Shown: in pieces, positions 8,788 through 11,039 of the stretch | Position numbering within the stretch: position 1 is the stretch's first letter | Layout of the letters: each line of letters opens with the position of its first letter | Assembly (NCBI RefSeq): GCF_009856865.1 | Contig: NZ_WVUD01000003.1 | Span: 1 to 64,000, forward strand | Length of the DNA stretch: 64,000 nt | Source: Solidesulfovibrio aerotolerans | GTDB taxonomy: Bacteria > Desulfobacterota > Desulfovibrionia > Desulfovibrionales > Desulfovibrionaceae | Direction: 5' to 3' | Position numbers and translations under genes: made by a program | The notes under the pieces: model-generated | Told to the model about the DNA's origin: nothing | Databases searched by the model: none | The model's input: the letters and a program-made list of their open reading frames with translations, nothing else

Positions 8788-8846
8788 TTTTAGTCACAAG
8801 GCGCATGGCGGGTATGCGCTGCAAACTGATTGCTTCACTTCGCCGG

Positions 8847-8876
8847 TCCGGTTGCGACGCTTGGTCGTTGCAACCG
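8847..8876. repeat. Inverted repeat upstream of fliL-like gene
   Basis: GGTTGCGAC and GTCGTTGCAACC form an imperfect hairpin (a three-base bulge) in the short leader before the FliL-like gene. It could be an operator or mRNA structure; the role is unknown. Confidence 0.35.
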
Positions 8877-8900
8877 TTGGCTGGTGCAAGGAGATCGTCC

Positions 8901-9362
8901 ATGCGGCATGGCGTGCAACTGCTCCTCGTTTTCCTGGTTCTGGTCTTGGCCGTGCCGGCGTCTGTGTCTGCCTCCTCGGAAGGCGGCCACGGCGGCGGGG
9001 ATTCCAAGAAAAAAGAGAAGAGTGAAAAAAAGGAAAAGGGCGATAAAAAAGAAGCCGGCAAGGCTGAAAACGGCGTCATCACCATCGGGCCGCTGGTGGT
9101 CAATATTTTGAGCAACAAGGGCTACCGTTTCTTGCGTCTGGAAATGATCGTGGAATGCGCGGACAACGAGGCGGCTGAGCGGCTGGTCAAAGCTGATGCC
9201 AAGGAAGAGCTCATCCTTATGCTGTCGAACAAAGTGGCCGACAATTTGCTCGCCAATTCAGGAAAAATGATCCTGCGCAAGGAACTCATTGATCTTTTTT
9301 CCAAATACACCGGCCCGGATAAGGTGAAAAACCTCTATTTCGCGGAATTCGTTTTTCAGTAG
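8901..9362 (+). CDS. FliL-like flagellar basal-body-associated protein
   Basis: A 153-residue protein with an N-terminal hydrophobic export or anchor segment (about residues 5-24, LLLVFLVLVLAVPASVSA), a highly charged Lys/Glu linker (about residues 34-55) and a C-terminal FliL-type domain with ITIGPLVVNILSNKGYRFLR and a conserved closing segment leading to YFAEFVFQ. FliL stabilises the stator around the flagellar motor. The ATG at 8901 is chosen over an upstream in-frame ATG because AAGGAG lies seven bases before it and a signal sequence starts there. No other flagellar genes are adjacent, so it may be a stand-alone FliL paralogue. Confidence 0.8.
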   Translation: MRHGVQLLLVFLVLVLAVPASVSASSEGGHGGGDSKKKEKSEKKEKGDKKEAGKAENGVITIGPLVVNILSNKGYRFLRLEMIVECADNEAAERLVKADAKEELILMLSNKVADNLLANSGKMILRKELIDLFSKYTGPDKVKNLYFAEFVFQ

Positions 9363-9394: not shown

Positions 9395-9991
9395 ATGTTT
9401 CACGATCTTTCGCCGGCCATGCTGGCGCGTATGACCGAACTTGAAGCCATCGATGCCGCCGACCGCGCCGACGGCACGCCGCATAACCAACGGCTGCGCC
9501 AGATACCCCCGAATACCGGACGCTATCTGGCCATCCTGGCCGCCAGCGCTCCAGCCGGGCAGATGGTCGAGGTGGGGACCAGCGCCGGCTATTCCGCCCT
9601 GTGGCTGTCATTGGCCTGCCGGCAGCGGGGCGACGTCCTGACTTCCATTGACCGCGATCCCGACAAGCTGGTCCTGGCCCGGCAAACGCTCGACCTGACC
9701 GGCAGCAGCGACGTCGTGCGGCTGGTTTCCGGCGACGCCCTGGACATTGTGGCCGCAATGGCGGGCGTGGCCTTTGCTTTTGTCGATGCCAACCGTGACG
9801 TGTTGCTGGCCTGCGTGGAACTTCTGGCCGACCGACTCGTGCCTGGGGGGCTTGTTGCCGTGGATAACGTTATCAGCCACGCCGCCGAAATCCCGGGGGT
9901 GTTGGAACGCATTCTGGCCGATCCCAGGTTCGACGCGGTGGTGGTTCCCATCGGATCGGGCGTGCTGACGGCCCGCCGGACCGCCCGTTGA
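9395..9991 (+). CDS. O-methyltransferase, class I SAM-dependent
   Basis: A 198-residue Rossmann-fold methyltransferase of the catechol/caffeoyl-CoA O-methyltransferase family. The SAM-binding motif is VEVGTSAGYSALWLSLA (about residues 58-74), followed by TSIDRDPDKLVLAR (acidic ribose-binding Asp), SGDALDI and FAFVDANRDVL, then GGLVAVDNV. The family metal-binding Asp position is replaced in part (FVDANRD instead of FIDADK), so metal dependence is uncertain. A strong GGGAGGGG site precedes the ATG. The methyl acceptor is unknown. Confidence 0.87.
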   Translation: MFHDLSPAMLARMTELEAIDAADRADGTPHNQRLRQIPPNTGRYLAILAASAPAGQMVEVGTSAGYSALWLSLACRQRGDVLTSIDRDPDKLVLARQTLDLTGSSDVVRLVSGDALDIVAAMAGVAFAFVDANRDVLLACVELLADRLVPGGLVAVDNVISHAAEIPGVLERILADPRFDAVVVPIGSGVLTARRTAR

Positions 9992-10106
9992 CGCCCCGGT
10001 GTCGTTAAAGCGTAACACAAAGCCGCCCTTGGCGTTTCGGGCCGGGTTGTGCTAGCCTGCTTGGGCTATCTGCCCCACGCGGGGCACGGGACATCGGGAG
10101 GTGACC

Positions 10107-11039
10107 ATGACCGGCGACGCAGCGAAGTTTTTGGCCCTGACCCTCGTGTTGGCGGCCTGCCTGCTGACTGCCCAGGCCGGTCCCTGCCACTCGCGCCCAG
10201 GCGAGCCGGCACCGGTCATCGTCCTGGCCGCCGGACCGGGTAAATATGTCATCAAAGCCGGGGATACCATCAACGTGCTGGCGCTGCGGCACGGCGTGCC
10301 GGCCGCAGCCATTTTGCGGGCCAATCCGGGGCTTAATCCCGCCCGTCTGCCGCTCGGCAAGGAAATCATCATTCCTGCCGCCACCAAGGCCGGTTCCGAA
10401 GCCTCTGCCCCGGCTGTCCCGGCGGCTGTGCCGACGCCTGCCGTAGCGGCCGCCCCGGCGGTAGCCTCGGGGGGCCAGGGCATCGAACTGCGGCCGGGGA
10501 AAGTGCCGCAAGCCACACCCCTGCCCGGCAGCGGCATCAAAAGCCATGATCTGCCCGATGCCGTGGCCAAACCAACGGCCCCGGCCGGGGGAAAAGAGGC
10601 CGGTCCGACCGATGCGCCCCAGGTGGCGGAGACCGTCGTTGCGACGCCGCAGCGTCAGGCTCCCAGGAGCACGGACACGACGGTGCCCGGCCCGGCTGCA
10701 CCGGCCGGGAACTGGTCCATGGGTGCGGTCTGGGTGCTGGCCGGAGTCGTCGGTGGGGCGCTTATCGTGGCGCTGGCCCTGCAGGGGGTCTTTGCCAATG
10801 TGGTCGCCGGCGTGATGCTGCGGCTGCTGCGGCCGTTTCGGCCAGGTGATGCGGTCCTATTGGCCGGCATCGTCGGTCGGGTGGAGACCATCGGCGGCTG
10901 TTACGTGGCCATCCGGTCCGAGGCCGGGGAGACGGTGCTCGTGCCCAACGCCAAAGCGGCCGGCGAAATCGTGGTGGTAGCCAAGGCGAAAACGAAGGCT
11001 GCGGTCAAGGACACGGGCAAGCGGGCGGATCGAAGCTGA
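10107..11039 (+). CDS. LysM protein with C-terminal MscS-like pore/beta domain
   Basis: A 310-residue protein with an unusual architecture. Residues 1-24 are an export signal or anchor. A LysM peptidoglycan-binding domain follows (about 46-91: KYVIKAGDTINVLALRHGVP, ILRANPGLNP, LPLGKEIIIPA). Residues 92-205 are an Ala/Pro-rich linker. A membrane helix (about 207-229) leads into a segment with the MscS hallmark order ALQGVFANVVAGVMLRLLRP, FRPGD, AGIVGRVETIGG and VLVPNAK, matching pore helix TM3 plus the beta domain of mechanosensitive channels. TM1-TM2 and the large C-terminal cytoplasmic domain are missing. The ATG at 10107 is preferred to the GTG at 10101 because GGGAGG overlaps the latter. 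Its 3' end overlaps the convergent ABC gene by 35 bases. Confidence 0.85.
   Translation: MTGDAAKFLALTLVLAACLLTAQAGPCHSRPGEPAPVIVLAAGPGKYVIKAGDTINVLALRHGVPAAAILRANPGLNPARLPLGKEIIIPAATKAGSEASAPAVPAAVPTPAVAAAPAVASGGQGIELRPGKVPQATPLPGSGIKSHDLPDAVAKPTAPAGGKEAGPTDAPQVAETVVATPQRQAPRSTDTTVPGPAAPAGNWSMGAVWVLAGVVGGALIVALALQGVFANVVAGVMLRLLRPFRPGDAVLLAGIVGRVETIGGCYVAIRSEAGETVLVPNAKAAGEIVVVAKAKTKAAVKDTGKRADRS

Follow-up and report, generated by a model that had tools for sequence, protein, structure and literature searches.

What can an MscS protein still do once it has kept a single membrane helix and acquired a domain of the type that binds the cell wall? One gene of Solidesulfovibrio aerotolerans raises this question, lying in a window of 64,000 nucleotides (positions 1 to 64,000 of contig NZ_WVUD01000003.1). 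In textbooks, MscS exemplifies gating by lipid tension, which acts through the TM1-TM2 paddle. The protein described here has no such paddle, and it has close relatives at the same locus that do.

The gene and its domains

The gene forms one open reading frame at 10107-11039 on the forward (+) strand, on which all window features located below also lie; it encodes 310 aa plus a stop codon ending at 11039. Its likely start is the ATG at 10107, because the alternative GTG at 10101, six bases upstream, sits inside the strong Shine-Dalgarno-like site GGGAGGTG (10096-10103) that directly precedes this ATG. Orthologs likewise carry GGAGGTG or a near match ahead of their ATG. A search for sigma-70 promoters near the gene gave no match.

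The initial annotation had divided the protein into an export signal, one LysM domain, an Ala/Pro linker, one membrane helix and an MscS segment, and Pfam, phmmer and AlphaFold bear out every part. According to the ortholog alignment and AlphaFold, an N-terminal hydrophobic helix spans residues 3-23 (10113-10175); it is predicted to be a signal peptide or a signal anchor. LAAC at residues 16-19 resembles a lipobox and could serve as one, in the clade of reduced, one-helix proteins only. Cys27 (10185-10187), just past the helix, is invariant in all 12 full-length orthologs; lipidation there is unlikely, given the Pro or Leu at position -1 and the poor fit to a lipobox. The same cysteine could form disulfides between subunits.

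The LysM domain (residues 47-90, 10245-10376) matches PF01476 with 35.9 bits (cut-off 20.9, E 7e-9) as well as solved LysM structures. It is followed by a linker of about 112 residues (91-202, 10377-10712), of which 75% are P, A, G, S, T or V; its pLDDT is mostly below 50, which together with the composition marks it as disordered. Embedded in this linker is a conserved linear motif (residues 126-149, IELRPGKVPQATPLPGSGIKSHDL, 10482-10553), where E127-P130, P134-T137, H147 and L149 are invariant in the 12 orthologs. The pattern ELRP...PQAT...H.L is kept in both the short and the long orthologs described below, with variable linker around it, and a motif search of the genus found no convincing copy outside these orthologs. 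Judged by its conservation, the motif looks like a candidate binding site for a periplasmic partner.

The remainder is of MscS type. Residues 228-284 match PF00924 with 40.7 bits (cut-off 20.2, E 2.5e-10), and in phmmer against solved structures residues 208-291 align with residues 94-178 of E. coli MscS (E 5e-10). AlphaFold, run on the monomer with 34 aligned sequences, gave the helix 3-23, a LysM fold (pLDDT about 90), disorder over 97-195, a helix at 203-241 and, again with confidence, the beta-domain; the disordered linker holds the overall pTM at a low 0.36. Residues 203-294 of the model overlay E. coli MscS 91-180 with Z 12.9 and an rmsd of 1.6 A over 90 residues. Thus, the sole membrane helix (203-241, 10713-10829) corresponds to TM3a plus TM3b, and the chain ends after the beta-domain (249-292, 10851-10982). 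The best matches among solved structures are MscS chains over TM3 and the beta-domain and, separately, LysM domains. The latter include peptidoglycan-binding proteins such as the NlpC/P60 endopeptidase 4uz2 (Z about 7.7), in which the same fold is attached to enzymes or to LysM repeats, not to an MscS core.

The absence of the first two MscS helices and of the C-terminal vestibule, also proposed initially, holds as well. PF21088, the profile of MscS TM helices 2/3, has no match in this protein and is present in longer orthologs; the chain stops 18 residues past the beta-domain, with no alpha/beta vestibule. The best NCBIfam matches are again MscS models, with scores far under the full-length cut-offs, as expected of an MscS fragment. 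Ahead of the beta-domain, the model has a single helix, and that of a longer ortholog has three (224-269, 274-299 and 304-338).

Two forms at one locus

Each of the 14 Solidesulfovibrio genomes searched has an ortholog, always at the same locus. In seven species (G001-G004, G009-G011) it is a three-helix form composed of LysM, linker, TM1-TM2-TM3 and beta-domain, about 380-400 aa long when complete. The other seven (G000, which is the window genome, G005-G008, G012 and G013) have the one-helix form with LysM, linker, TM3 and beta-domain. The vestibule is absent from both. Twelve orthologs are full-length, the genes of G002 and G006 being split across contig ends; LysM and the beta-domain were matched in 12/12 and PF21088 in six, and TM1-TM2 can be seen in all seven sister-species orthologs. 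The fusion is therefore conserved in relatives. The three-helix orthologs (L036, L039-L043) share with the window protein the locus, signal, LysM, linker motif and beta-domain end point; they differ in length, in having TM1 and TM2, and in a TM3 with the G101/G104 pattern (E. coli MscS numbering). Because the short build is common to seven species, with its frame intact, an assembly error, a frameshift or chance can be ruled out.

The order malate synthase, FliL-like gene, LysM-MscS gene, ABC protein and DapA is kept across the genus, the last two genes lying on the opposite strand; in G009 the upstream neighbours were not found. The FliL-family gene (8805-9362; Pfam FliL 49.3 bits) is the upstream neighbour in 13/14 genomes, and in 9/14 an O-methyltransferase gene (9395-9991) lies between the two. 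This FliL-family gene differs from one or two further FliL-family genes per genome, and no close relatives of it were found outside the genus among 119 family genomes searched. A functional link between its product and the LysM-MscS protein is possible.

In a tree of TM3 plus beta-domain with other MscS proteins, both forms compose one clade (100/100), the reduced form falling within or beside the three-helix form. Its stem branch is long, at 1.09 changes per site, and marks a functional shift. A tree of three neighbouring genes also unites the seven reduced species (100/100). These trees show that TM1-TM2 was lost once, in a single clade of species, by a LysM fusion whose vestibule was already gone. 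That the reduced clade fused a different MscS independently is ruled out by what the two forms share, namely the locus, LysM, the linker motif and the C-terminal end point, and their grouping in one clade also speaks against it. A topology that separates the reduced form from a group of the three-helix form and two canonical Desulfovibrionaceae MscS was rejected (p-AU 0.01).

Canonical MscS proteins of the family share about 40-49% identity with the three-helix part. Apart from G011 and G004, which have a different, short MscS, no genome of the genus showed a canonical MscS of about 280 aa. In the simplest history, the canonical small MscS of this lineage would have gained LysM and lost the vestibule, in either order, before TM1-TM2 was lost.

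Beyond the genus, no other LysM-MscS fusion of the same kind occurs among the matches listed from 297 order genomes, 395 phylum genomes, GTDB contigs and IMG/VR; these searches rest on similarity to the LysM-MscS family, so divergent or unrelated independent fusions could escape them. LysM matches outside the genus (L063, L064) proved to be multi-LysM proteins without MscS and were rejected. In the open-access literature, a search turned up no relevant paper on fusions of MscS to LysM or another peptidoglycan-binding domain.

Two further observations concern this group of genomes. Near-identical frames of 175 residues with MscS TM helices and beta-domain (L072 1112-1636, L084 669-1193, L085 556-1080) occur in G002, whose genome is incomplete, and in two genomes from another genus; they are natural bacterial MscS proteins without a vestibule, and the copy in G002 hints at transfer or contamination. 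No MscL gene was found in the 14 genus genomes by a search that was positive in 10/14 control genomes. MscL is also rare across the family (10/59).

Pore residues, selection and known reductions

Pore residues were tabulated for six reduced sequences in E. coli MscS numbering. L105/L109, G113, G121 and the group G104/A106/G108 are gating residues of E. coli MscS, the last group being critical (PMC6261518). In the reduced forms, the gate positions remain non-polar (Leu, Val or Ala at 105, Leu or Phe at 109), and G113 and G121 are kept in 6/6; Q112 of the Q112-G113 kink, N117 and RPFR are kept as well. By contrast, other residues take the place of the packing glycines G101 and G108 in 6/6 sequences and of G104 in 4/6, leaving the reduced form without the Gly/Ala packing pattern of TM3a, and an Arg stands at the equivalent of position 125 in TM3b. 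Gating of the E. coli type needs this glycine packing, whereas membership by sequence does not in the MscS superfamily, of whose features the window protein has PF00924 and the TM3 pore helix and lacks the paddle and the vestibule. E. coli MscS (7onl, 2vv5, 6rld) shares with it the hydrophobic gate positions, the glycines equivalent to G113 and G121 and the beta fold; unlike it, E. coli MscS has three helices with a tension paddle, a vestibule with portals, a glycine-packed TM3a and no LysM. As far as residues can tell, the pore lining looks kept, the packing that permits normal gating altered and the lipid-tension paddle gone.

By Nei-Gojobori counts over six reduced species, dN/dS rises from 0.13 in the beta-domain through 0.18 in LysM, 0.23 in the linker motif and 0.34 in TM3 to 0.56 in the linker outside the motif; within the G013-G007 pair and the G012/G008/G005 group, the beta-domain value is 0.06-0.07. 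The protein has been under purifying selection since the paddle was lost, most strongly on the beta-domain. With the beta-domain constrained at least as much as LysM, it is not a decaying remnant.

The initial annotation knew of no described protein of this build. This stands, apparently, for the LysM fusion and for the reduction in a bacterium, and fails for the core, since microsporidian MscS2 is a known case of TM3 plus beta-domain (PMC11262690), and Trypanosoma cruzi has a two-helix MscS without a vestibule (PMC12334622). MscS2 of Nematocida displodere is a homo-heptamer, and its authors held the extreme N-terminal truncation to be unique to microsporidia (PMC11262690). Like the window protein, MscS2 clearly keeps only TM3 and the beta-domain, having lost TM1, probably TM2, and the alpha/beta vestibule, and in some members its N-terminal segment is a predicted signal peptide (PMC11262690). 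Unlike the window protein, it is eukaryotic, has 73-95 aa in its shortest forms and carries neither LysM nor a long linker. The likeness is convergent, and the two reductions independent, as the ancestor of the window gene was a bacterial three-helix form. TcMscS of T. cruzi, to which the window model aligns with Z 11.4, likewise has a reduced membrane part and no vestibule; it lacks TM1, keeps TM2 and a short N helix, has no wall-binding domain, conducts, and has been solved as a heptamer (PMC12334622). What appears to be new is the LysM tether, the reduction in a bacterium and the survival of the three-helix form in sister species.

Possible roles of the one-helix form

Two of the roles proposed initially, a minimal pore or a partner for a full MscS, are both possible. 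The reading that we favour, at a probability of about 0.5, is an MscS-core ring tethered to the wall, most likely a heptamer, that acts as a pore or scaffold anchored to the wall and whose gating is low or altered. The N-terminal signal would place LysM in the periplasm, on peptidoglycan glycans, and the long flexible linker would bridge the gap from wall to membrane. The TM3 helix would cross the inner membrane once, N out and C in; the positive charges after it (RLLRPFR) fit this direction and, taken together with the signal and LysM, suggest a periplasmic LysM and a cytosolic beta-domain, as in MscS. The beta-domains would form an MscS-like ring in the cytosol with the TM3 helices lining its centre. 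Such an oligomer is probable from precedent, and it is the heptameric MscS2 (PMC11262690) and the conducting T. cruzi protein (PMC12334622) that lead us to judge a wall-tethered ring most likely. The fold match to MscS, the conserved domains and locus, the purifying selection and the residues kept at 105, 109, 113 and 121 also count for this reading. The replaced packing glycines, the Arg in TM3b and the long stem branch count against it, as does the failure of E. coli MscS without its vestibule domains to insert in membranes, as cited in PMC11262690. With the paddle absent, a normal lipid-tension valve is unlikely, and the ring has most probably been retained as an anchored pore or scaffold.

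A non-conducting partner is the first alternative, which we consider rather unlikely: the single-helix subunit would join or regulate rings of the cell's other MscS-family proteins and tie them to the wall. The window genome does encode four other MscS-domain proteins, and the decay of the TM3 packing pattern beside a beta-domain that is the most constrained region would suit such a role. One large MscS-domain protein (L069 584-2956, G000:C126, 791 aa) is present in 6/7 reduced and 0/7 three-helix species. However, this co-occurrence tracks a single clade split and may reflect ancestry only, and G007, a reduced species, is without the protein. Moreover, TM3 plus beta-domain shares just 24-30% identity with the paralogs encoded in the same genome, a distance that lowers the likelihood of mixed rings.

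Similarly unlikely, though conceivable, is a ring of LysM-tethered single-helix cores whose pore or sensor state is set by the wall and not by membrane tension; to our knowledge, no such mode is known in the MscS family. Its mechanical version, in which movement of peptidoglycan pulls on LysM and the linker and so opens the TM3 pore, follows the initial proposal of a link between wall state and gating; we regard it as improbable. It fits the anatomy and the conserved linker motif, and with the lipid-tension-sensing paddle gone another input would be needed; but the linker is poorly conserved outside the motif (dN/dS 0.56), and by general polymer arithmetic its roughly 112 residues amount to a contour length near 40 nm, more than the usual distance from membrane to wall. 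The linker would thus be slack in turgid cells, direct transfer of force through it is unlikely unless the membrane retracts, and by the same arithmetic and general knowledge a pull would arise mainly in plasmolysis. An equally doubtful alternative, a mere tether from inner membrane to wall with the MscS part left over, would account for the lost paddle and vestibule and for the fast change of TM3 and beta-domain along the stem branch, but since the loss that very beta-domain has had a lower dN/dS than any other region, which is not expected of a remnant.

Overall, one genus holds at one locus a three-helix and a one-helix form, in seven species each, with the short form under purifying selection. 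This natural pair permits a direct test of the role of the paddle and of the action of the wall on an MscS core. The one-helix form, an apparent bacterial parallel to the reduction of microsporidian MscS2, bears on the minimum that an MscS channel requires.
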